Positions 4,000-42,930 of a DNA stretch of 57,716 bases are shown one piece after another (positions within the stretch are counted from its first letter, which is position 1; each line of letters starts with the position of its first letter). This DNA comes from Prochlorococcus sp. AG-436-C13 (lineage in GTDB: Bacteria; Cyanobacteriota; Cyanobacteriia; PCC-6307; Cyanobiaceae): contig QCPC01000010.1 of the NCBI GenBank assembly GCA_003212695.1, positions 1 to 57,716 of the forward strand. The letters run 5' to 3'. A model generated the notes under the pieces. The model saw only the letters and a program-made list of their open reading frames with translations. It had not been told where the DNA came from and did no database searches. Made by a program: the position numbers and the translations under genes.

Positions 4000-5259
4000 T
4001 TAATTAAGACATCCAGACTTCCTGAGTGAAGGAAGCCGAAGGCTACTCAACCATGAGAAGAGGATAAATAAGCTGGAACAACACAAACAAATCTGCATAC
4101 CTAAATAAGGAGTATCTCCCAGAACAAACAAAACTCCTGATAGAAGCGTTCCAAGAAGCCTACCTGCCGCATTTGCCATGTAATAGAAGCCAACGTTGAG
4201 GCTTACATTTTCAGCATCTGTATAAGCCAAAACCATGAATGAATGGATAGAAGAATTCATTGCGAAAACTATTCCGAACGCAATTAAACCAGCAGTAATG
4301 GCAATGCTTGGATCATTTTGTCTCCATAATGCAATTGCTATTAGTCCAGGTATCCCCATCAGCAACGCACTCCAAAATTGAATCGTTGAAACTCCTGGGC
4401 TCGATTTCTTTCCCCAAAGATTTCTTAAAGTTGGGGCCAATGCTTGTACAAAACCGTACCCAATAATCCATAGGCCTAGGAAAGCTCCAATCTCAGAGAA
4501 GTTCCAATTAAGTGATGTCTCAAGGAAAACAGGTAATGCGACTACAAACCACACATCTCTAGCTCCGAAGAGAAAGAAACGTGCAGTCGAGAGAGTGTTA
4601 ATTCCTCTTGATTTTGAGAAAAGGTCCTTAAATATTGGCTTTTCCTTCATCCGCCCAATATCACCCGGCAAGATCAATGTCATAAGAAATGACAACGCCA
4701 AGCCAATCGCCATTACCCCAACCGCTTTATTAAAACCAAAGCCAGTTAGTAATGCTCCCCCTAGGAAAAACCCAACCCCCTTTAGGGCATTCTTTGATCC
4801 TGTTAAAACAGCAACCCATTTGAACAACTTCTTGTTCCCTTTTTGTTCTTCTTCAGGGGTTTCAGGTACGACTGTTTTGATTGCACTCTTTGCACTCATT
4901 TTGTTGAGGTCTTTAGCAATACCACTAATTGCTTGCGCAACCATGACATAACTAACGCTTAGAAATTTGGGCCAACTTGCAGCAACAGGAACCAGCATCA
5001 AAAGAGCACTGATTTGAAGAAGTGTGCCTGCCCAGAGAGTTAGTCGTAGGCCAGAACGCGCACCAATCCAGCCGCCATAGAGATTAGTAATAATTCCAAA
5101 GAACTCATAAAACAAAAAAAGAAACGCAATCTCTAAAGCTGTATAGCCAAGTTGATGAAAATGAAAGACCACCAACATGCGAAGTGCGCCATCAGTCAGA
5201 GTGAACGCCCAATAATTTGTAGTAACGATCAAGTATTGCTGAAGAGATGATAATTTCAT
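4000..5259 (-). CDS. arsJ: ArsJ, organoarsenical (1-arseno-3-phosphoglycerate) exporter, MFS
   Basis: A 419-residue polytopic membrane protein of the major facilitator superfamily. It matches the ArsJ family closely: the N-terminal 'QYLIVTTNYWAFTLTDGALR', 'FLFYEFFGIITNLYGGWIGA', 'AQAISGIAKDLNKMSAKS', 'TGSKNALKGVGFFLGGALL' and 'ARFFLFGARDVWFVVALPVF' are family hallmarks. In the known pathway GAPDH joins arsenate to 3-phosphoglycerate to give 1-arseno-3-phosphoglycerate, and ArsJ exports it. The usual adjacent gapdh is absent here, so the substrate presumably comes from a housekeeping GAPDH elsewhere (inference). A repeat copy lies directly upstream of the start. Confidence 0.9.
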   Translation of the reverse strand: MKLSSLQQYLIVTTNYWAFTLTDGALRMLVVFHFHQLGYTALEIAFLFLFYEFFGIITNLYGGWIGARSGLRLTLWAGTLLQISALLMLVPVAASWPKFLSVSYVMVAQAISGIAKDLNKMSAKSAIKTVVPETPEEEQKGNKKLFKWVAVLTGSKNALKGVGFFLGGALLTGFGFNKAVGVMAIGLALSFLMTLILPGDIGRMKEKPIFKDLFSKSRGINTLSTARFFLFGARDVWFVVALPVFLETSLNWNFSEIGAFLGLWIIGYGFVQALAPTLRNLWGKKSSPGVSTIQFWSALLMGIPGLIAIALWRQNDPSIAITAGLIAFGIVFAMNSSIHSFMVLAYTDAENVSLNVGFYYMANAAGRLLGTLLSGVLFVLGDTPYLGMQICLCCSSLFILFSWLSSLRLPSLRKSGCLN

Positions 5260-5289
5260 TATTTAAGTGCTTGCTATTACTTAAAGCTC

Positions 5290-5395
5290 ATATTTCATTA
5301 GGCAGTAGCTAAGTTCCTGTTGTGCCATGGGATCTCAGCGAAAATAGGGGGTTTGAATAAAGTTTGAATAAACCCCTTCTCTCAGGGTTCTCTTA
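5290..5395. repeat. Interspersed repeat, copy A
   Basis: Close to the consensus: 'TTTCATTAGGCAGTAGCTAA', 'TTGTGCCATGGGATCTCAGC', then the tandem 'GTTTGAATAAAGTTTGAATA' and 'CTCTCAGGGTTCTCTTAC'. It lies about 30 bp upstream of the arsJ start codon and could contribute to the arsJ 5' region. Confidence 0.8.
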
Positions 5396-5529
5396 CTTCT
5401 ATTATCTCTTAAATCAATAAAAGAAGGACCCTTGTTTTTGAAGGAGACGATTTTCAACTCTATTGATTTTATCTAAACCCTTTTTTTGACGGAAGGAGCA
5501 TGGTTCATTTGGCTCAGATAGAAACATTA

Positions 5530-6051
5530 TTAGAATTGTTGCGAGCCTTCTAGTTGTAATGGACTTAGCTCAATTCTTTTTATTCTCTTGTTTTCGTATA
5601 CCCAAAAAATAGGTTCTGTAGCTTTTGCCTCTGTCAAATCTTTTCTTTCTCGCAGGCTTACAGGAATAAACTCTTTGTTGGGGTCAAAACCCTGTTTTCT
5701 TATTGATTGATTGATAACAATACTTCCTTCTTCCCCTGAAACTGATCTGTGATAAGTCCCTATAGGAATTTGCAGTGCTCCCATCTCTCGTCTTAGAAAA
5801 ATCACATGATGAGGTTCATCCCATGAAGGATTTAGCAAAGTGAATGTTCTTTTGCCTTCGATAACTAAGTTATGATCAACTTGAAACTGGTGTACATAAT
5901 ACTGTTCAAATTCCTCGTCATTAGGAGGAGACGTCGCACTTCCACGATGCATAACGACATCGCAACCATTCGATGCTCTTACTCCTGCATCGAAGAAAGT
6001 AACCTGAGGTGTTTCTCTGAAAATTTGAATAGGGATGAATTCAAGATGCAT
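5530..6051 (-). CDS. Cupin-like hypothetical protein
   Basis: A 173-residue soluble protein. The middle reads like an RmlC/cupin beta-barrel: 'YYVHQFQVDHNLVIEGKRTF' followed by 'PSWDEPHHVIFLRREMGALQ' and 'IPIGTYHRSVSGEEGSIVIN', with histidines at spacings typical of cupin metal or ligand sites. There is no signal peptide. The OsmC-like gene ends one base upstream on the same strand and the CP12-like gene precedes it, so the three form a probable operon. The fold assignment is moderate; the substrate is unknown. Confidence 0.7.
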   Translation of the reverse strand: MHLEFIPIQIFRETPQVTFFDAGVRASNGCDVVMHRGSATSPPNDEEFEQYYVHQFQVDHNLVIEGKRTFTLLNPSWDEPHHVIFLRREMGALQIPIGTYHRSVSGEEGSIVINQSIRKQGFDPNKEFIPVSLRERKDLTEAKATEPIFWVYENKRIKRIELSPLQLEGSQQF

Positions 6052-6052
6052 G

Positions 6053-6463
6053 TTAATACCTCCTTTTATTAGTGATCCAATGGACTGTGATCTTTAATGA
6101 GCTTTTCAGGCTTCTTATTACCGGGCAATCTTCAGTTGCTTTCTGAAGAACTTTTAACCTCTCTATCGATAAATCAATAGGCATGAAAAGTTGAATAGAA
6201 ATAGATTCAATTGCCCTGGGTCCTTTTAGAGTCATCTTTTTATTAACATCTGCTGTTATCTCTCCTATATCCCAACCTTCTCTTTTAGCTGCAATACCCA
6301 TAACTGTCAGAAAACACGTTCCCAACGCAGTTGCGACTAAATCAGTTGGTGCGAAACTCTCACTTTCTCCCTCGTGATCTATAGGTGCATCGGTTGTTAG
6401 TGTTTGCCCTGAAAGAGCATGGAGAGCCTCTGTATGTAAGTTCCCAAGATATTTACAAATAAT
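6053..6463 (-). CDS. OsmC-like protein, start codon unresolved
   Basis: The frame reads 'KYLGNLHTEALHALSG', 'TTDAPIDHEGESESFAPTDL', 'VATALGTCFLTVMGIAAKRE' and so on, which is the OsmC/Ohr peroxide-protection fold. The family Cys motif appears as 'LGTC'. The homology extends upstream of any ATG, GTG or TTG in frame. The frame is open only back to a TGA at 6478..6476, and the only plausible initiators at the expected N-terminus are ATT codons at 6463 and 6460. An ATG at 6479 is one base out of frame. So either a rare ATT start, a frameshift or a sequence error applies; an internal TTG at 6325 would lose the N-terminal third. It overlaps the end region of the CP12-like gene. Confidence 0.7.
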   Translation of the reverse strand: MICKYLGNLHTEALHALSGQTLTTDAPIDHEGESESFAPTDLVATALGTCFLTVMGIAAKREGWDIGEITADVNKKMTLKGPRAIESISIQLFMPIDLSIERLKVLQKATEDCPVIRSLKSSLKITVHWITNKRRY

Positions 6464-6468
6464 CTTGT

Positions 6469-6633
6469 TTACACTTCATACAACTTGCAGTTGGCTTTTG
6501 TTGGATTGCTAAGGCATTCTGCTTCCCACTTAAAATTTTTATCTGCTTCTGGCAAATTGTAATTGAAATCGTGCATCCTCCAGACGTCACTTACTGTGCC
6601 GTTAAGGATGGTGAAAGGTGATACCAACCTCAT
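6469..6633 (-). CDS. CP12-like C-terminal mini-protein
   Basis: A 54-residue protein whose C-terminus reads 'KWEAECLSNPTKANCKLYEV'. The pattern C-x3-P-x4-C-x2-Y is exactly the spacing of the C-terminal, GAPDH-binding Cys loop of CP12 (typical CP12: C-DEN-P-DADE-C-RV-Y). The N-terminal phosphoribulokinase-binding half and the 'AWDAVEEL' segment of CP12 are missing. It may be a redox-sensitive partner of a dehydrogenase; that is inference. It ends 5 bases before the OsmC-like frame. Confidence 0.65.
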   Translation of the reverse strand: MRLVSPFTILNGTVSDVWRMHDFNYNLPEADKNFKWEAECLSNPTKANCKLYEV

Positions 6634-6946
6634 AAGCCTCCTTGTCGATTACTAAGACTATATATGACGGTTAAACCATTTACTCAAGAGGGTTTATACC
6701 TATTTATATGCCTATTTAATATTGTCTTAATTATCTCTTGAATATATTCTTGACACTCATTAGTAGAGATGCTGAAGTTACTCTTTATTATGCCTACATT
6801 GAATTAGCCCTAAATGTTTAAATGACTCTAATTTCAGAAAAATCGGTAGAGTGCATAGACTTCTCTTCTTAGCAGCTTTCTTTGGCTGCGTTTAACGTCC
6901 AGCTCGACTCTTTCTCCCTGTATACATAGGTGATTGCTTATCTCTT
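6634..6946. other. Intergenic, no gene seen
   Basis: About 310 bases between the CP12-like gene and the conserved leader at 6947. I found no credible frame on either strand. The DNA is AT-rich and holds the promoter region of the leftward CP12-like/OsmC/cupin operon. Confidence 0.4.
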
Positions 6947-7054
6947 GCTTCGGTTATTACTGGGGGGTTGTGTCGTAGAGACCGAAGTTCGGTGTAGATA
7001 CCGCATCATTATCTACGGTTTATATCACCATCAAAAACAACTATTTGGCGCATA
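6947..7054 (+). promoter_or_regulatory. Conserved 108-bp leader, copy 1
   Basis: It aligns without any gap to 26754..26861; both lie directly before homologous reading frames. Conserved blocks are 'GCTTCGGTTATTAC', 'CGTAGAGACCGA' and the palindrome ACCGAAgTTCGGT (6981-6993; ACCGAcgTTCGGT in copy 2). In this copy a second stem GTAGATA/TATCTAC (6994-7000/7010-7016) is possible but is not kept in copy 2. It is likely a promoter-operator or 5' UTR. Confidence 0.6.
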
Positions 7055-7384
7055 GTGAATTTGTTGTTCTCATTCGTAGTGATGTATTCAGTTACTCGTT
7101 TCTCTCTTGCTCCTTCTTTCTATCGTCCTGTTTATGTCATCTCTGATAGCGAGATGGCTCAATTAAAAGTTCAACACCATAAAGATGAGCTTGATTCAGT
7201 AGTTGATCAACGAAAACGATTAGAGGATGCTTATGAAAAGCAGAGAACACATTTGCTTGAGCGAGAGAAATCTCTTAAGAGTGAGTTGAAAGCTCTGGCT
7301 CCATCTGCAAGTAACCCTGTTAAAGAAACAGTTGATAAAGCTGTTGATGCAATTAAAGACACGGCTAAGAAAGTAGTCGCATAG
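7055..7384 (+). CDS. Coiled-coil small protein of duplicated family (intact copy)
   Basis: A 109-residue protein starting at GTG 7055, or at ATG 7082 if the N-terminal hydrophobic nine residues are excluded. It contains 'PSFYRPVYVISDSEMAQLK', then a Lys/Glu-rich coiled coil ('DSVVDQRKRLEDAYEKQRTH...EREKSLKSELKAL'), and ends with an amphipathic Lys/Ala tail. A second copy at 26862..27191 is interrupted by an in-frame TAA. A strong hairpin terminator follows at 7403. The function is not recognised. Confidence 0.7.
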   Translation: MNLLFSFVVMYSVTRFSLAPSFYRPVYVISDSEMAQLKVQHHKDELDSVVDQRKRLEDAYEKQRTHLLEREKSLKSELKALAPSASNPVKETVDKAVDAIKDTAKKVVA

Positions 7385-35449: not shown

Positions 35450-36481
35450 TTAATCTTCCTGATTATTAGTATCATAATAAATACAAGCTTCAAGTTGAAT
35501 TTGTAGCTTTTTATGCTCAAGATCTTTACCTATGAGAACAATCTTATTTTCTCTTTTACGATGTTTTTCTGTATCATCCATTGTGAACCTTTTCCCTGCT
35601 AAATGAAATATATGTGTTAGCTCACTTTCATCAAAGCAAAGTAATCCTTTTGCCCTATATACACTAGATGGTAATTGATTGTCTAAGAAATATTGGAACT
35701 TTCTCAATGAAAAAGGATATTTAGATTTAAAGGAAAATGAAGTAAATCCTTCTATCGATAATTCTTCATGGTCATGGTCATGGTCATGGTCATGGTCATG
35801 GTCATGGTCATGGTTATGGTCATGGAAAGTATTGCTCTGAGCTATCAGATCTGATTGAAATAATCCAACACTGAGTAAAAGGGCCAAAGGCACCTCTCCT
35901 TTTGTGCTTTTTAGAATTCTTGGATCAGTTTTAGTCTCTGAAATTATTGACTCTATAAAACCTATTTTTTCTTGACTAACTAAATCACATTTATTGATTA
36001 ATAATATATCTCCATAGATAATTTGTGATCTAGCAATTTGACTGTGCAGTGTATCTTGATTAAAGTTTTCTGCATCAATTAAAGTAATTATCGAGTCTAG
36101 TCTTAATTGCTCCCTGGCCCCATTGATTGTCATTGCAACTGGTAAAGGATCTGCTAAGCCAGTGGTCTCGACTATTAAATATTCAATATCTTTATTCTTA
36201 CTTAATATCTTATAGATAGTATCTAATAATTCTCCATTAATTGTGCAACATATGCAGCCATTAGTTAGTTCAACAATATCATCATTTGTTTTTACAATTA
36301 AGTCGTTATCAATACCTATCTCACCAAACTCATTCACGAGTACGGCAGTTTTTAGGCCTTTTTGATTAGTTAAAATATGATTCAAAAGTGTTGTTTTTCC
36401 TGAACCAAGAAAACCTGTGATAATTGTCACAGGAATACCAAGTTTCTCGTTTTGCTCTCCATGATTATCTGCTTTTGACAT
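35450..36481 (-). CDS. COG0523 (CobW-type) GTPase with His-Asp tract
   Basis: 343 residues. Walker A 'GFLGSGKTT' (23-31), the family CxCC motif 'GCICC' (75-79), 'ETTGLADP', and the G4 motif 'LLINKCDLV'. A tract of alternating His-Asp residues ('HDHDHDHDHDHDHDHD') separates the GTPase and C-terminal CobW domains, a metal-binding linker seen in zinc-related COG0523 proteins. The likely role is delivery of zinc to client proteins under zinc shortage. It is next to the WD40 and znu genes. The His-Asp tract is coded by a simple CATGGT-type repeat. Confidence 0.92.
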   Translation of the reverse strand: MSKADNHGEQNEKLGIPVTIITGFLGSGKTTLLNHILTNQKGLKTAVLVNEFGEIGIDNDLIVKTNDDIVELTNGCICCTINGELLDTIYKILSKNKDIEYLIVETTGLADPLPVAMTINGAREQLRLDSIITLIDAENFNQDTLHSQIARSQIIYGDILLINKCDLVSQEKIGFIESIISETKTDPRILKSTKGEVPLALLLSVGLFQSDLIAQSNTFHDHNHDHDHDHDHDHDHDHEELSIEGFTSFSFKSKYPFSLRKFQYFLDNQLPSSVYRAKGLLCFDESELTHIFHLAGKRFTMDDTEKHRKRENKIVLIGKDLEHKKLQIQLEACIYYDTNNQED

Positions 36482-36515
36482 TGAATTATTTAGGAAACTT
36501 TTCTATGAAAATATA

Positions 36516-37589
36516 TCATGAGAATCCTTTAGGGGAAGATTTAGTACGCATTTTAAAATTCCAAACGTTAATGCCTCCTTTTGAATTTACTGCTGCCAAA
36601 GCACAATCATCAGGTCGCCAGGTAATTGCGGAGACAAGCTCTCCTGCGAATGCTCCACCAAGTGGGTCACCATGACCATTACTCTTGAGAAACCAAACAA
36701 GAACTGAACCATCTCTAGCTCCTGAAGCAAGAAGCATTCCCTGATTTGAAAAAGCAAGACTAGAAATCGATTCAGCATGAAGAGATAATTGTCCAGGGAC
36801 AGTGCCTTCAGGGCCCGTTCCTTCAAAGCTCCAAACTGTCACGACATCACTTCCCCCAGTAGCGAGGACTGTACCGGTTTGATCAAAAGATAACTGGCTT
36901 GGCTTCCCTGGGTAACCAGTCATCTCAGAGTCTTCGTTAGTTGAGCGACGCCAGAAATGAACAGAATTATCTTGACTGCCGCAGGCTACAACATCACCGT
37001 TTGGGCTAAGAGCCATAGAAACAAGTGAGCCTTGCCATTCAAACTTCTGATTAACCTCATCGTGAACTACATCAAAAAAAGTTACTCGGCCATAGCATGC
37101 AGTTGCTAGTTCATTCGACTTTGACCAAGCGATCGAGCTAACAGTGCTTGGGTGTTCCCCTGATTTCCAATGTTCGTGACCATCAATCCCATATACATGC
37201 ACTCTGCGAGAAAAGGCTACAGCCAAGAAACGTCCATCTGCTGACCATCTCAGGTGTTCGACCCAACCGTCTCCAAGCTCTATTACGTTAGTTGACTCAC
37301 CTTCTTCGCTATTCCAAATAAGAACACGTCCATCTTGTCCTGAAGTTGCAAAAATATCTCCATCTGGGTGTATAGATAATGCGAGCAGGCCTCCTTTATG
37401 GACCTCTTTTTTCTGCCAAAGGGGGGTTCCAGCTTTACCCTCAAATAAATAAAGTCCACCTGCAACGTCACCTACTAAGAGTGCTTTGCCACCCAAGATC
37501 CACCCACAAACTATGGCATAGTCTTCAACTTCAGCACTCCAGCCCTCGTGAAGCATCCCCTGGGGACTAAATCCTTCTACACCAGGCAC
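36516..37589 (-). CDS. WD40 repeat protein of the zinc island
   Basis: 357 residues made of about seven WD40 blades ('ALSIHPDGDIFATSGQDGRV', 'LIWNSEEGE', 'SLAFSNQGMLLASGARDGSV', 'LVWFLKSN'), enough for one propeller. No catalytic motif. It overlaps the end of the second CobW-type GTPase by 13 bases and is followed by the first one, so it is cotranscribed. It may act as a scaffold for the metallochaperone GTPases. The pairing of a WD40 gene with CobW in zinc-related loci is what I recall from marine cyanobacteria. Confidence 0.88.
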   Translation of the reverse strand: MPGVEGFSPQGMLHEGWSAEVEDYAIVCGWILGGKALLVGDVAGGLYLFEGKAGTPLWQKKEVHKGGLLALSIHPDGDIFATSGQDGRVLIWNSEEGESTNVIELGDGWVEHLRWSADGRFLAVAFSRRVHVYGIDGHEHWKSGEHPSTVSSIAWSKSNELATACYGRVTFFDVVHDEVNQKFEWQGSLVSMALSPNGDVVACGSQDNSVHFWRRSTNEDSEMTGYPGKPSQLSFDQTGTVLATGGSDVVTVWSFEGTGPEGTVPGQLSLHAESISSLAFSNQGMLLASGARDGSVLVWFLKSNGHGDPLGGAFAGELVSAITWRPDDCALAAVNSKGGINVWNFKMRTKSSPKGFS

Positions 37590-38959
37590 TTATCGAACTC
37601 CCTACACATTTCTTTTTCATCAAGATTTCTACCGATAAACACTAATTGATTATGGCGAGGTTCATTCCCCCATTCTTTATCTGGCTGAGCAGTGAAGAGC
37701 ATGTGAACCCCTTGAAAAACCATTCTCCTGGATTCACCCGCGTAACTTATAAACCCTTTTGTCCTAAATATATCTACACCTTTTTCTGACAGGAGTCGAC
37801 TCAACCACTTATTGAGTTTTTCTGGATCGACATCACCTATTCGCTCAATAGCAATTGAGCCCACTTCATCATCATGTTCATGCTCTGCCACCCAAGTCCG
37901 CTCAGTTTCAGGTTGGACCAAAGCATCATTTTTGCCATCACTTTCAGTTGTAGTAATTAAAGTATCAACTCGGGATACTTTGATATCAAATTCCTCTGCT
38001 GTGTGCTGGGTGAAAAGCCCAATATGAGTAGGGTTATCAAGTTCTAAAAAGAAAGATTTACGCCCATTAGACTGAAGCTGAAGACTGACATGTTTTTCAA
38101 TTGGGACTGTGCTTCCAGGATGAAGAAGTTTCGCAGAGTCAGCGTAAAGTCTTACGCAAGATTCAGCACCAGCATTAAGAGCTGCTTCGTCAACCCCCTG
38201 ATCTTCCAGAACGACCAGCGACATCGTGGGATCAGGACCTTCTTCAAGGCTAAGTTCATAACGACCTTTCTCAAGAGAAAAAACACCTGTCCACTCGAAT
38301 GGATATTCTGGCTCAAGGAAAGTGGGACGACGCTTTAAAACCTGATCTAGATCAAATGCACTAAGGTTTAACACAGTATCAATAGATACCTCCGCTTGCT
38401 TACTACGAACAACACGAGCCATCCGATTCATATCGCGTAGCCGTGATTCAAGAATATCGAGAGATTCATCAGAGACTAAGTCCGTTTTGTTTAGGACAAG
38501 GACATCTGCGAATGCAACCTGCTCAGAACTTTCATCACTGCGACCGAGTTGCTGATCAATATGAGCCGCATCAACGAGAGTAACAATGCCATCAAGAGAA
38601 AATTCATTACGGATTTCATCATCCATAAAAAATGTCTGAGCAACAGGTCCAGGATCAGCAAGTCCTGTTGTCTCAACCAACACATAGTCAAATTTATCTC
38701 GTCGCTTCATGAGGTTGCCTAATACGCGAATTAGGTCTCCACGAACGGTGCAGCAAATGCAACCGTTGGACATTTCAAAGACTTCTTCGTCAGCATTAAT
38801 GACCAGACCCTGATCAATACCAACTTCACCATATTCATTTTCGATTACAGCGATTCGTTTACCGTGTTCTTCACTCAGAATCCTATTAAGGAGGGTTGTT
38901 TTCCCAGAGCCAAGGAAGCCCGTAAGGATGGTGACAGGTACTTTTTGTTCGATAGTCAT
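37577..38959 (-). CDS. COG0523 (CobW-type) GTPase with an inserted domain
   Basis: 460 residues, longer than the usual 320-400. Walker A 'GFLGSGKTT' (14-22), 'GCICC' (66-70), 'ETTGLADPGPVA', 'VLNKTDLV'. The C-terminal CobW domain is 369-460. Between the two, residues 221-328 form an extra domain starting 'FEWTGVFSLEKGRYELSL' and ending 'GLFTQHTAEEFDIKV'. A domain of the same order and spacing sits in ZnuA encoded just upstream. The region 356-364 has 'AEHEHDDEV', a small metal-binding site. The start overlaps the small gene upstream by 4 bases. Confidence 0.93.
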   Translation of the reverse strand: MTIEQKVPVTILTGFLGSGKTTLLNRILSEEHGKRIAVIENEYGEVGIDQGLVINADEEVFEMSNGCICCTVRGDLIRVLGNLMKRRDKFDYVLVETTGLADPGPVAQTFFMDDEIRNEFSLDGIVTLVDAAHIDQQLGRSDESSEQVAFADVLVLNKTDLVSDESLDILESRLRDMNRMARVVRSKQAEVSIDTVLNLSAFDLDQVLKRRPTFLEPEYPFEWTGVFSLEKGRYELSLEEGPDPTMSLVVLEDQGVDEAALNAGAESCVRLYADSAKLLHPGSTVPIEKHVSLQLQSNGRKSFFLELDNPTHIGLFTQHTAEEFDIKVSRVDTLITTTESDGKNDALVQPETERTWVAEHEHDDEVGSIAIERIGDVDPEKLNKWLSRLLSEKGVDIFRTKGFISYAGESRRMVFQGVHMLFTAQPDKEWGNEPRHNQLVFIGRNLDEKEMCREFDKCLV

Positions 38960-39288
38960 TTTGTCTTTGTTAAGTCTTTAGTACAATTAGAATTGGTCAA
39001 GTTCATATCGATTAAGTAATTTTTATCGATGCCCAAGAGTTCGATAGCCTTTCCTTCAAAATCATCAAGCTCAGAGTAGTTGTAGGGAACTTTTAACTGT
39101 AAGATTAATTTCCCATCTTCTTTTGAAATGGAGTGATCTGAAAATTTAAGTTCTTCAATATTTTTCTCAAAATCATTTGAGAGAGTTAACTTTAAGATTT
39201 TTTGCGGGTTCCATGGAGATTGGTCCATGAAATTTGCTTGATCTTCCCAATATTCCTTATAGGTCTCGAAGCCTTTAGATTTAGACAT
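38956..39288 (-). CDS. Hypothetical protein of the zinc island
   Basis: 110 residues, soluble, charged: 'MSKSKGFETYKEYWEDQANF', 'PQKILKLTLSNDFEKNIEEL', 'YNYSELDDFEGKAIELLGID'. Its TGA overlaps the ATG of the inserted-domain GTPase (ATGA), so it is translated with it, and ZnuA lies 50 bases upstream. No family is recognised. Context suggests a zinc-starvation role. Confidence 0.75.
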   Translation of the reverse strand: MSKSKGFETYKEYWEDQANFMDQSPWNPQKILKLTLSNDFEKNIEELKFSDHSISKEDGKLILQLKVPYNYSELDDFEGKAIELLGIDKNYLIDMNLTNSNCTKDLTKTK

Positions 39289-39338
39289 TTTAATTAGAGT
39301 TGAATGTGAAACTTCAACAGAAGATTAGGATTTTTAAA

Positions 39339-40883
39339 TTAACGTTTAGTTAATGAATCCCACCTATTTTCTAGTTGATTACCTGCTTTCTTATTGCAGG
39401 AACCACCCAAAGAGTTAACGATGGTACATGTGTTATGAACAGCTACAGAAATAGTATTTCCTGTAGGCATTAAGCCATCAACAAAAATCTGTTGTTTTGC
39501 TATAGGGGTAGAAGTTTGTCTACTTAAGTTTTTCAAAAGCTTTGAAGAAGGTTTTTGCTCTGGAAATATAACTTTTACATTCTCTTCTCTAAGCTCTGTT
39601 ATTACTTTGGAAATGGTCTGAGGCCTAAGGCTCGATGAATGACCAAGAAAATCTAATAAGCTAATAGTTTTCAAACCAAAAGCATCCCCGTAGTATTCCA
39701 TAGCTTTATGCTTAGAAACTATCGTCCTTTGATTAGAAGGGATTGTGGCTACTTGTCTTTGAGTCCATTGATCTAAATCTTCTAAAAGAGAATTAACAGC
39801 TTGAGTTCTTTCTTTTAAAACTTTTTTAGTTTCTCTATCAAAGAATGAAATTTTCTTGTTGAGATTTTTAGAAATGACATTTCCCATCTTGATGATGTTA
39901 TGAGGATCATGCCAAACATGGGGATCTAGTCCACCATGATCATGATGATGATGATCACCGCCTTCATCTGGGACTTGAGCTATCGGTTCAATATCATCGC
40001 CTGAAACATCTTTAAAGAAATGTTCATCGGCTTCAAACTCAAAAGGCATATGCTCAGTAAAGAAAGCATATTTACCAGCTTTTTTGATTTCTACATTGAA
40101 TGTTGTGCTGTCTTTTCTCTCATTAAATGTAAGAACATAGGCTTTTTCCTGTGCAACAAGTGTGTCATTGCTGCGTTTAACTTCTGAATTTTTGGACTCT
40201 AATAATTCTTCAGCAAGCTCTTCTGATGCTTCAATATCCGCAGATTTAAGGATGACCATTTTCATGGCAGGATCCGCATAGTCTCCATCGACTTTTGCAA
40301 AAGACCATTTGTAGGTTCCTGGTGAAAGTTCAAAGACACCAGCCCATTCAAAAGCTTCATCTCCATGATCATCGTGGTCGTCATGCTTCGCAGATGAATG
40401 ATCGTCATGATCATCGTGGTCGTCATGCTTCGCAGATGAATTATCGTCATGATCATCGTGGTCATCATGTTTAGCAGATGAATGATCTCCATGATCATCG
40501 TGGTCATCAATTTCTATTGCACTTACACCGACAACAACCGTTATGGGGTTATCCAGCCATTTTTTCATTGCGGGAGTCATCTCTTGCCCAAGAGTAAAGA
40601 CTTGACTTGCATTGTTAAGAGTTTGGGCCTGCCTCGGAGAAATTTTCACATCATGTACATCTTGTTTTCTATCAATCAAACAAGTGACGGGGGATGAAGG
40701 CAACGCAATTGCTGAAACTAAATCACAAACCAATGGTTCAACAGCAACTATTGACTTTGGTTCAGCTTGCACAACCTGATTGATTCCTGTGAAAAATACA
40801 GCTCCTGCTAAAAGAGAGTCCTTTAAAATCTTTATATTTACAAACGATTTTTTGTGACTTGACTTATTTGAAAAAAATGACAT
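39339..40883 (-). CDS. znuA: Periplasmic zinc-binding protein ZnuA with inserted domain
   Basis: 514 residues from ATG 40883; the upstream frame to 40925 runs into the Zur box and is not preferred. Signal peptide 1-40 (ending VVQA). The binding fold is split: residues 40-125, a His/Asp-rich stretch 126-175 made of four 'DDHDDHxD(H/N)SSAKH' units, then residues 177-286 carrying the 'FEWAGVFELSPGTYKWSF' domain also found in the neighbouring GTPase, a 'DHHHHDH' loop (about 311) and the cluster A1-type core 'LDPHVWHDPHNI'. ZnuA normally has about 300-330 residues. It delivers zinc to ZnuBC. Confidence 0.95.
   Translation of the reverse strand: MSFFSNKSSHKKSFVNIKILKDSLLAGAVFFTGINQVVQAEPKSIVAVEPLVCDLVSAIALPSSPVTCLIDRKQDVHDVKISPRQAQTLNNASQVFTLGQEMTPAMKKWLDNPITVVVGVSAIEIDDHDDHGDHSSAKHDDHDDHDDNSSAKHDDHDDHDDHSSAKHDDHDDHGDEAFEWAGVFELSPGTYKWSFAKVDGDYADPAMKMVILKSADIEASEELAEELLESKNSEVKRSNDTLVAQEKAYVLTFNERKDSTTFNVEIKKAGKYAFFTEHMPFEFEADEHFFKDVSGDDIEPIAQVPDEGGDHHHHDHGGLDPHVWHDPHNIIKMGNVISKNLNKKISFFDRETKKVLKERTQAVNSLLEDLDQWTQRQVATIPSNQRTIVSKHKAMEYYGDAFGLKTISLLDFLGHSSSLRPQTISKVITELREENVKVIFPEQKPSSKLLKNLSRQTSTPIAKQQIFVDGLMPTGNTISVAVHNTCTIVNSLGGSCNKKAGNQLENRWDSLTKR
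40368..40502. repeat. 39-bp tandem repeats in znuA
   Basis: Roughly four tandem 39-bp units (13 codons) code for the His/Asp-rich 'DDHDDHxDHSSAKH' stretch. They are nearly identical, suggesting length variation between strains. Confidence 0.85.
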
Positions 40884-40909
40884 CAACCAGGGATTCAAGA
40901 TCATAGAAA

Positions 40910-40924
40910 TGATAATGATTTTCA
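40910..40924. promoter_or_regulatory. Zur operator between znuA and znuC
   Basis: TGATAATGATTTTCA, a 7-1-7 imperfect palindrome (6 of 7 arm positions match) flanked by AAATGATAATGATTTTCATTC. It fits the cyanobacterial Zur-box type (TGA-x-AA...TT-x-TCA). It lies in the divergent region, 27 bp before the znuA start and 50 bp before znuC, so zinc-loaded Zur would shut both. Confidence 0.8.
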
Positions 40925-40973
40925 TTCTTGCTTGCCAAGTATAGTATCGTTTTGTTAGGGAATGCTTTGATTA

Positions 40974-41675
40974 GTGGCCAATTTAATTGCTGAAAAATTG
41001 ACATATTCCTATTCAATGCATAGTCAGCCTGTTTTGGACCAGGTCTCAGTTGAGCTGAATACGGGTACTTTGACTGCACTTGTTGGTCCAAATGGTGCGG
41101 GAAAATCCTCCTTATTTCGTCTTCTTCAGGGGGAAACCAAGCCAAACAAAGGACATATCAGTATTGATGGTCATCCTTTAATTGATATTAGAGAGCAAGT
41201 TGCTCTAATGCCTCAAAGGAATACCATTAACTGGAACTTTCCAATTACCGTTGAAGGTTTAGTTGCTTTGGGACGAGTTAATCATTCAAGATCAACATGT
41301 TGTGAATTAGAAGCTGCCCTACAAAGAGTTGGAATACTGGAATTATCTCAAAGGAGACTTGATGCATTGTCTGGGGGACAGCAACAAAGAGCTTTGCTTG
41401 CAAAAACTTTAATGAGACCAGCAAAAATATTTCTTCTTGATGAACCTTGTTCTGCATTAGATCCTCCTGCACGAGAACAGTTCTTGATAATTATTCGCCA
41501 GTTAGCGGATGCTGGGCTAACAATTTTTGTGAGTAGTCATGATTGGGGCAAATCTTTAAATGCTTATGACAGGGTTGTAGCTCTTGATAAGAAGGTTTTA
41601 GCTAATGGTACTCCTAAAGATGTGCAACAAAAACTCGATTCAATAAACTCTATGGGTAATCATTGCTGTGGATAA
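40974..41675 (+). CDS. znuC: Zinc ABC transporter ATPase ZnuC
   Basis: 233 residues from GTG 40974. Walker A 'GPNGAGKSS' (38-46), Q-loop 'MPQRN', signature 'LSGGQQQR' (132-139), Walker B 'IFLLDEP' (152-158) and the switch His in 'VSSHDWG'. It powers zinc import with ZnuB and ZnuA. The C-terminal 'MGNHCCG' could bind a metal. It faces away from znuA across the Zur operator, and znuB follows after the opposing zur gene. Confidence 0.96.
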   Translation: MANLIAEKLTYSYSMHSQPVLDQVSVELNTGTLTALVGPNGAGKSSLFRLLQGETKPNKGHISIDGHPLIDIREQVALMPQRNTINWNFPITVEGLVALGRVNHSRSTCCELEAALQRVGILELSQRRLDALSGGQQQRALLAKTLMRPAKIFLLDEPCSALDPPAREQFLIIIRQLADAGLTIFVSSHDWGKSLNAYDRVVALDKKVLANGTPKDVQQKLDSINSMGNHCCG

Positions 41676-41689
41676 TTCCCCACATTCAA

Positions 41690-42127
41690 TTAAGCGTTAT
41701 TTTTCTGAATGCAGTTTTGACAAAGACCAAAGAACTCAAGAGTATGAAACAAGAGTTCAAAGTTTTTAGAATTTTTTTGAGGCAAATTGATATGTTTTAC
41801 TGGACAACTATTTAAACGGGTAGTTTCTCCACAATCAACACAAGTTAAATGATGGATATCTCTTTCAACAGGAGCATAAAGAACCTCTCCTGTTGGAAGA
41901 TGCCTAGAACGGACCAACCCTTGCTTTACAAGTACTTGCAAATTTCTATATACAGTAGCTAATCCCATGGCACTTTCACTTTGGTGCAATTGTCTATGCA
42001 CATCTTGACCACTCAATTCGTCATCACATTTTTTTAGTTCTGCAAGCAATCGCTTTTGACGTTTGCTAATTTCAGGTAGGTTTCTATTCATTGGCAAGAT
42101 CTTTCTTTGATCTCTTTTACCGACCAT
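41690..42127 (-). CDS. zur: Fur-family regulator, Zur
   Basis: 145 residues. N-terminal winged helix 'SAMGLATVYRNLQVLVKQGL' is the DNA-recognition part; the C-terminal structural zinc site has 'CVDCGE' (Cys96, Cys99) and 'CQNC' (Cys136, Cys139), and 'DIHHLTC' gives further ligands. Its location inside znuABC identifies it as Zur rather than Fur. It ends 14 bases after znuC and is divergent from znuB, with only 14 bases between the start codons. Confidence 0.93.
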   Translation of the reverse strand: MVGKRDQRKILPMNRNLPEISKRQKRLLAELKKCDDELSGQDVHRQLHQSESAMGLATVYRNLQVLVKQGLVRSRHLPTGEVLYAPVERDIHHLTCVDCGETTRLNSCPVKHINLPQKNSKNFELLFHTLEFFGLCQNCIQKNNA

Positions 42128-42141
42128 ACTGAATCATTTGC

Positions 42142-42930
42142 TTGATGTCTTTTATCAATACAAATTGGTGGATAATCCCCTTCTTTATAACAATTGCCTC
42201 AGGAGTGCTTTGTCCGGCAATGGGCACTGTATTAATTACCCATAAACGTCTTCTGCAAGTTAATTTAATCTCTCATTGTGTCCTCCCAGGGTTGGCAATG
42301 GCAATGGCTCTTGGTATTGATCCTTCTATTGGTGGAATTATTAGTGGGTTGTTAGGGGCTTTGATCGCAGAAAGTTTGACGAATAAAAAAAATGAAAACT
42401 ATGAAGCAGTGATGAATACAACTCTTGCAGGATCACTTGGATTTGGAGTTCTTATTATACCTTTACTCGGTATCAGAGTTGATTTAGAAGCTGTTTTATT
42501 TGGAGATTTGTTGACTACAAACTTTGGAGATTTAGCCAGGACAATTATTTCATTTTTAACATTTCTTTGTCTGATGATTTTTGGTTACGACAAATTGGTT
42601 CATGTAGCATTAGATCCAGAAGGTGCTGCCGCAAACGGTATAAAAGTGTCTTCTTTGAATTTAGCACTTGGTTTTACAACTGCTCTTGTTATTGTTAGCT
42701 CAATGTCAGCGGTTGGGGTAATTCTTGTAATTGCTTTACTTTCTGCTCCAGCTTTATGGGGATTAAATCAAGCCCCGTCTTTATGGATTGCTATGGGGCG
42801 ATCTTCAATTGTTGGACTTACAATATCACTGCTAGGTTTTATACTTGCAATTCTTTTTAATTTAGCTCCTGGTCCTCTTATAAGTGTTATTTGTGTTGTT
42901 TCCTTGTTTCTTAGATATATCAGAATTTAA
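42142..42930 (+). CDS. znuB: Zinc ABC transporter permease ZnuB
   Basis: 262 residues, an ABC-3 family permease with eight or nine membrane helices. Diagnostic segments: 'LCPAMGTVLITHKRLLQVNL', 'SHCVLPGLAMAMALGID', 'DPEGAAANGI' and 'SAVGVILVIALLSAPA'. It forms the membrane channel for zinc with ZnuC. The start is separated by 14 bases from that of the divergent zur gene, so its promoter must overlap zur coding DNA or come from read-through. Confidence 0.95.
   Translation: MMSFINTNWWIIPFFITIASGVLCPAMGTVLITHKRLLQVNLISHCVLPGLAMAMALGIDPSIGGIISGLLGALIAESLTNKKNENYEAVMNTTLAGSLGFGVLIIPLLGIRVDLEAVLFGDLLTTNFGDLARTIISFLTFLCLMIFGYDKLVHVALDPEGAAANGIKVSSLNLALGFTTALVIVSSMSAVGVILVIALLSAPALWGLNQAPSLWIAMGRSSIVGLTISLLGFILAILFNLAPGPLISVICVVSLFLRYIRI

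Follow-up and report, generated by a model that had tools for sequence, protein, structure and literature searches.

A domain of about 110 residues shared by ZnuA and a CobW-type GTPase of Prochlorococcus: a probable metal-handling module at His-rich loops

The His-rich loops of ZnuA proteins are thought to raise the zinc concentration near the ZnuA cleft (PMC8786288), and genes of COG0523 subfamily 5 GTPases were described as clustered with WD40 and znuABC genes, in some cases linked to Zur, the subfamily in which human COG0523 was also placed (Haas et al., 2009, PMC2770081). In Synechococcus WH8102, a Zur-repressed cluster, synw0968-0973, includes uncharacterised genes beside znuA (PMC9337993). 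The present analysis concerns a domain of about 110 residues, further referred to as the module, which is carried both by ZnuA and by a COG0523/CobW GTPase of Prochlorococcus sp. AG-436-C13 (genome assembled to 1.55 Mb, 79% complete); the window is the whole analysed stretch of 57,716 nucleotides, i.e., contig QCPC01000010.1, positions 1 to 57,716. Homology of the two copies is confirmed, and the reading that we consider probable is that of a portable metal-handling beta-sandwich module inserted into, or replacing, His-rich loops of metal-homeostasis proteins.

The domain common to ZnuA and CobW

The two hosts and their module copies occupy the following positions of the window:

39339..40925, minus strand: znuA, zinc ATP-binding cassette (ABC) transporter substrate-binding protein, 528 amino acids from the most upstream ATG (Pfam ZnuA, 2.1e-48)
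40353..40520 (limits approximate), minus strand: His/Asp-rich ZnuA loop preceding the module, delimited from the sequence
40020..40352, minus strand: ZnuA-borne module copy, ZnuA residues 192-302, with the invariant residues E193, G203, D218, H292 and E296
39927..40019, minus strand: acidic insert tail with the His stretch that extends to the ZnuA motif DPHVWHDP (from residue 334), delimited from the sequence
37577..38959, minus strand: COG0523/CobW GTPase, 460 amino acids, with the module between the GTPase and CobW_C domains (Pfam cobW, 2.4e-61; CobW_C, 2.2e-24)
37973..38299, minus strand: CobW-borne module copy, residues 221-329, with the invariant residues E222, G232, D243, H319 and E323

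The first host belongs to the ZnuA family (PF01297, 165.5 bits in two stretches, the best of which, 310-503, lies after the module), and the second one combines the cobW and CobW_C profiles with the P-loop GFLGSGKTT and the sequence NGCICC carrying the CxCC motif of COG0523. Comparison of the whole proteins by BLASTP aligned CobW 221-325 with ZnuA 192-298 at 25% identity (E 3e-6), while the ZnuA insert, searched against its own genome, found two places at E ≤ 10, namely the ZnuA and CobW inserts. Profile-profile comparison of 5 ZnuA with 15 CobW inserts aligned the two families over 100 columns with a probability of 96.8% and E 3e-10. The AlphaFold2 model of the ZnuA insert (predicted local distance difference test, pLDDT, 89.8; predicted template modelling score, pTM, 0.84) contains strands 9-15, 18-25 and 35-42, helix 46-58, strands 62-65, 70-72, 77-81, 88-95 and 99-105, and helix 109-112; that of the CobW insert (pLDDT 80.7, pTM 0.75) contains strands 8-15, 18-24 and 31-38, helix 44-58, and strands 63-65, 76-80, 87-93, 97-103 and 112-117. 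The main strands and the single long helix thus follow in matching order in both predicted structures, strand 70-72 and helix 109-112 being specific to ZnuA and strand 112-117 to CobW, and the models are not wholly independent, as 13 of the 29 rows in the alignment behind the ZnuA model are CobW sequences (the alignment for the CobW model consisted of CobW rows only).

A sequence-only reading of the window had proposed that the same domain of about 110 residues is inserted in both proteins, and this was borne out: on the sequence comparisons and predicted structures, CobW 221-329 and ZnuA 192-302 are confirmed as one homologous domain, its two predicted folds agree in the order of the main elements and its profile match is better than chance. 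The insert limits given in that reading were 221-328 for CobW, and for ZnuA they correspond, in the numbering of the 528-residue frame, to about 192-301 (177-286 when counted from a start at 40883, i.e., residue 15). The pairwise identity of a mere 25% could be taken for chance or convergent likeness of two unrelated inserts; considering the E values of 3e-6 and 3e-10, the matching element order in the models and the five positions invariant throughout the copies, we regard such an explanation as practically negligible, and the profile-profile comparison rules it out.

The module appears to be unnamed, being part of no Pfam, NCBIfam or PHROGs family at cut-off (nothing under E 0.1 in PHROGs), and phmmer and hmmsearch against PDB sequences returned nothing under E 0.3 for it. 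Weak Foldseek neighbours common to both models include 9fow, 5azw (GOLD domain), 4d3w and 5lvc. When 14 modules were scanned against Pfam at E 1, the six families listed did not include ZinT (PF09223); matches to CBM_35 (E 0.0079, 16.9 bits at a cut-off of 28), PA14 (E 0.14) and Copper-bind were dropped as single weak ones. The sub-threshold CBM_35 and PA14 matches, each in one of the 14 members, together with the periplasmic and surface location of some hosts, would suit a sandwich binding carbohydrates or other small molecules, for instance zinc complexed with organic ligands. This explanation is highly improbable, considering the cytosolic copy in CobW, the metal proteins that constitute the named hosts and the weakness of matches confined to single members. 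ZrgA models matched His-rich stretches outside the module and not the module itself. A viral origin was rejected, as four scans of viral contigs gave 4, 101, 17 and 89 pattern matches with zero confirmed relatives among them, and tblastn found none in phages. No published mention of the module was found in a limited literature search, in which the sources were accessible in part.

Invariant residues, His-rich loops and hosts

Residues Glu2, Gly12, Asp27, His101 and Glu105 of the module are invariant in 56 of 56 copies thinned at 90% identity, and all 217 distinct full-length copies (L126 included) keep the same five positions and no others without exception; these counts are to be read bearing in mind that the ZnuA records were fetched by two conserved peptides, one with Asp27 and the other with His101, and that all copies were gathered by the very profile that shows the invariant residues. 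The 56-copy set and the module tree considered below exclude twenty named loci, all of which except L126 repeat others. Four of the invariant residues, the two Glu, Asp and His, are candidate metal ligands; presumably they make one metal site, by which the module would bind metal.

In ZnuA the module is flanked by His-rich stretches and lies ahead of the DPHxW motif. The median ZnuA frame (n = 108) has 7 His in the 30 amino acids preceding the module (range 0-10) and 9 in the 60 following ones, and the median CobW frame (n = 109) has none before the module and 2 after it, the frames counted being distinct, with many near-identical and some partial, after removal of nine repeat loci and of frames containing unknown residues. 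A long His run occupies, in the second CobW of the window, the region where the module sits in the first one. Of 30 close COG0523 genes of Pseudomonadota (30 of 35 matches, with short flanks), all lack the module, 28 have a His stretch past residue 200, and at least 18 have a neighbouring WD40 gene. Because of these His counts and His stretches, the module is an addition to the His loop in ZnuA and a substitute for it in CobW; a His-flanked module also characterises the membrane protein of Alicyclobacillus and the haloarchaeal stand-alone hosts described below. Its position at His loops and the four invariant Glu, Asp, His and Glu residues are what a metal-handling role would fit.

If this is so, the module would capture or buffer zinc (nickel or cobalt in some hosts) beside the host's own site, like ZinT fused to AdcA. 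Its one His and three carboxylates would be placed at the mouth of the ZnuA metal site, or at the hinge between the GTPase and C-terminal domains of CobW, holding the metal loosely enough to pass it onward: the ZnuA copy would catch periplasmic zinc for ZnuBC, and the CobW copy would serve the cytosolic GTPase chaperone. The stand-alone proteins, in one case with urease neighbours, suggest that some hosts may handle a metal other than zinc.

The same sandwich may instead be a protein-protein or oligomerisation module docking partners (the WD40 protein in the case of CobW and, in that of ZnuA, either ZnuB or a different protein of the periplasm), with the invariant residues being structural. 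A beta-sandwich in which Foldseek recognised no ligand site would agree with docking, as would the WD40 gene that adjoins module-bearing CobW in 71 of 72 cases (L022-L101); on the other hand, a WD40 gene adjoins at least 18 of the 30 module-free COG0523 genes as well, so that the module is not required for WD40 pairing. Considering also the absolute invariance of Glu, Asp, His and Glu and the different compartments of the hosts, whose one common trait is metal handling, we believe docking to be an unlikely function of the module.

A scan of GTDB species contigs with the ZnuA insert gave 271 relatives, and the best 80 of them, kept together with the window, make up 81 loci; these best 80 comprise 76 Prochlorococcus, one Synechococcaceae, one Pelagibacteraceae and two gammaproteobacteria. 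Both the ZnuA and CobW copies are present at 73 of the 81 loci, the ZnuA copy only at 6 (some loci being cut short), and 2, both proteobacterial ZnuA, were missed by label; ZnuA bears a tandem pair of modules at 23 loci. In the Pelagibacteraceae and the two gammaproteobacteria the host is a ZnuA adjoining permease- and ATPase-like genes, as judged by translation. The domain was found in 31 of 386 genomes of the window's phylum, 22 of which have it in ZnuA and CobW and nine in CobW only (in two of the nine, G001 and G029, the frames are cut and were named from the sequence), and in 2 of 398 genomes of Pseudomonadota, once in ZnuA and once in CobW. Constant co-occurrence of the inserts in a znu/cobW pair, to be checked according to the sequence-only reading, did not hold: besides these nine genomes, the three proteobacterial ones among the best 80 have one domain each, in ZnuA, also when searched with a broad profile, and the module occurs in a membrane protein and in stand-alone proteins.

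Plasmid records extend the host range. Haloarchaea have ZnuA with the module (L105, L107, L108 and L109) and stand-alone module proteins with lipoprotein-like starts (L110-L112). The stand-alone protein of Natrinema (L111:3875-4426) directly follows ureG/ureD/ureE/ureF genes, a hint of nickel. In Haloarcula rara, the module-bearing ZnuA has upstream of it a frame (L109:988-2307) that looks to us like a transposon-associated TnpB. In an Alicyclobacillus plasmid (L106:3779-4690), the module is situated within a membrane protein whose gene has annotated cation transporters and that of a metal-sensitive repressor around it; Pfam had no row for the whole protein, the module-free protein or its N-terminal part, and gave Mntp (E 0.0055, below the cut-off) and two weaker rows for the C-terminal part; 'NicO-like' is our guess from a motif. 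CobW-borne copies with WD40 neighbours are found in Paraburkholderia and Pantoea agglomerans, and a broken module frame of 108 amino acids in Pantoea soli (L115).

The ZnuA cluster CK_2462 was reported in a review to be almost absent from Prochlorococcus (PMC8786288); this contrasts with 29 module-bearing ZnuA frames from the window's family, which may belong to another cluster. A ZnuA frame of 872 amino acids in L148 (G623, 4727-7342) consists of two nearly identical parts with a run of N between them and may be an assembly artefact or a tandem duplication.

Gene run and regulation

The module-bearing genes belong to a run of five on the minus strand (35450-40925: znuA, a 110-residue open reading frame (ORF), cobW, WD40 and the second cobW), and on the divergent side of znuA lie genes that, by translation, resemble znuC, a Fur-family regulator gene and znuB. 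The remaining features are as follows:

40910..40924, no strand assigned: Zur-box-like palindrome TGATAATGATTTTCA, with 1 mismatch to the Zur-box consensus
38956..39288, minus strand: 110-amino-acid ORF between znuA and cobW, no family match above cut-off
36516..37589, minus strand: WD40-repeat protein, partner gene overlapping the cobW stop, from family search and the WD40/cobW pairing in related loci
35450..36481, minus strand: the run's second CobW GTPase, which has a plain His loop and lacks the module (internal control), from family search and sequence
40974..41675, plus strand: znuC-like ATPase gene, divergent, named from translation alone
41690..42127, minus strand: Fur/Zur-family-like regulator gene, named from translation alone
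42142..42930, plus strand: znuB-like permease gene, named from translation alone

The WD40 neighbour (36516-37589) is a trait of COG0523 subfamily 5. Two COG0523 types thus occur in one run, the second CobW beginning 34 bases past the WD40 gene. ORFs resembling the 110-residue one adjoin znuA in L148 and L149, and in the latter (G750, 1573-1956) so does a CobW frame of 128 amino acids, the module-bearing CobW being elsewhere in G750 (C1:907617).

The palindrome lies just upstream of 40883 and is the only site in the window with one mismatch. Since 24 sites of the window have three mismatches or fewer, versus 10.1 expected, a single Zur-box-like site is weak by itself. When the window and related loci were compared, a site with up to two mismatches was detected at the start of znuA in 63 of 79 regions (each of about 210 bases) versus 4 of 79 once-shuffled regions, and before cobW in 3 of 73 start regions (about 150 bases). 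Because the site covers the first ATG, the true start of znuA is probably 40883, residue 15 of the 528-residue frame, and the gene run together with the site points to zinc-specific uptake as the likely function of the host 39339-40925. Zinc shortage would then lift Zur repression of the whole run, supplying both ZnuA and the chaperone, each with its module. The genes synw0972 and synw0973 of WH8102 could not be equated with cobW and WD40, both being called uncharacterised in PMC9337993.

The idea of a metal module shared within one regulon, as advanced in the sequence-only reading, stands in so far as there is a single domain, not covered by the Pfam matches to ZnuA and CobW, and both host genes form one run behind a Zur-box-like site; it falls short in that the module is not confined to the ZnuA-CobW pair. 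The further proposal, that the copies are matched to each other for a like response of the transporter and the chaperone or for handing zinc over, draws on the 73 of 81 loci holding both copies, which share one gene run in the window as well as in most of the Prochlorococcus loci retained, and on the phylum genomes, 22 of which have both copies and none the ZnuA copy alone. We find such crosstalk very unlikely, given that the tree splits the ZnuA type from the CobW type (a 97/88 branch has the CobW rows on one side; long-branch warning), that each of the three proteobacterial genomes has its one domain in ZnuA and nine genomes have CobW copies only, and that in G750 and G694 ZnuA is not linked to the module-bearing CobW.

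Movement of the module and comparison with described systems

Between the window and proteobacteria, ZnuA inserts are 75-76% identical, whereas C-lobes share 20-25% and N-lobes 23-26%; at third codon positions the inserts are 52-60% identical, so the event was not recent. In L083 and L078 inserts with 40-41% GC are embedded in cores with 50-52% GC. Presence of the module is likewise decoupled from the backbone. In G828 the C-lobe of the module-bearing ZnuA is 94% identical to that of the window and the C-lobe of the module-free ZnuA 87%; for the module-free ZnuA of G758 the value is 67%, and loci L155-L206 (several of them repeats) have the module in 31 of 42 recovered ZnuA frames. Among 37 relatives of the Halothiobacillaceae genome (itself and G195 aside), the nearest ZnuA C-lobes are 39-42% identical and belong to frames of 307-329 amino acids, too short for the module; G814, one of the three nearest relatives of this ZnuA, was checked and has no module. 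The core tree was built with 26 of the 30 rows tried (L152, L158, L159 and L164 gave no usable row); it requires 6 changes in module presence, and starred branches force at least 4 of them. Because insert identity, GC and presence or absence are all decoupled from the ZnuA backbone, it is well supported by these sequence comparisons that the module was transferred apart from the rest of the znuA gene, a conclusion that does not include the direction. On the module tree, proteobacterial copies fall within Prochlorococcus copies (9-row set 97/91, with long-branch warnings), yet the approximately unbiased (AU) test does not uphold firm nesting. Two ZnuA paralogues per genome, one with the module and one without, occur in L201-L204 (G828, G897, G857 and G840).

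A wider scenario is offered tentatively, as somewhat less likely than its alternatives taken together. The single-site Glu-Asp-His-Glu module would cross phyla as a part of a gene, with DNA repeats of the His loops, as we propose, serving as landing sites for recombination; ZnuA, NicO-like transporters, COG0523 chaperones and secreted proteins would gain, duplicate and drop it, and the tandem copies in some Prochlorococcus would be of use at very low zinc.

Several observations weigh against portable metal handling. Foldseek returned 0 matches at E ≤ 0.001 in PDB for both models, so the module is not matchable to any known metal site. CobW modules diverge faster than the GTPase (28-47% vs 66-82% identity to those of the window), the four residues still being kept; the domain is rare, given the 2 of 398 and 31 of 386 genomes that have it; and the loci with the Zur box are close relatives, not independent ones. 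As regards movement, the GC gap of L062 is small (36% in the insert, 39% in the core), and 70 of 500 shuffles on the core tree need as few changes, so module presence is hardly clustered, although such a number of changes is nothing out of the ordinary. A tree with the Prochlorococcus ZnuA inserts in a single clade is not rejected by the AU test (p-AU 0.122), which thus fixes neither the direction nor the number of transfers.

If the metal-handling reading is true, the module would be one of the rare folded domains to have crossed phyla within a gene whose remainder stayed behind. By standing at the His loops of a transporter and a chaperone, or replacing them, a portable domain would partly explain how open-ocean cyanobacteria live at very low zinc, and the module would offer a way into the COG0523/WD40 system, which is poorly understood.

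The module has its counterparts in several described systems. ZinT has a lipocalin-like fold and occupies the C-terminal place in AdcA. As in AdcA, a ZnuA-type zinc-binding protein bears a second metal-handling domain (PMC6689063); in contrast to ZinT, which is a separate known family, a sandwich of about 110 residues lies here inside the ZnuA His loop. ZnuA and AztC, the cluster A-I proteins, share with the window's protein the ZnuA core, the DPHxW motif and the His loop, but the loop described here bears one folded module, or two in 23 of 81 loci. AztD, known as a beta-propeller, is larger than the module. AztD, ZepA and ZrgA, which are periplasmic or extracellular, resemble it in an accessory role in zinc acquisition beside ABC transporters (AztD, PMC6689063; ZepA, PMC10957091), and the structural relatives of AztD are WD40-like (PMC6689063). 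ZepA was rejected as a relative, as it has an H-X2-9-H-F/Y-H site (PMC10957091), which the module lacks. The genomic context resembles that of COG0523 subfamily 5, with its WD40 and znuABC neighbours; the difference lies in the inserted domain, which is not mentioned in the available part of the subfamily's account (PMC2770081) and is absent from 30 of 30 close proteobacterial relatives.

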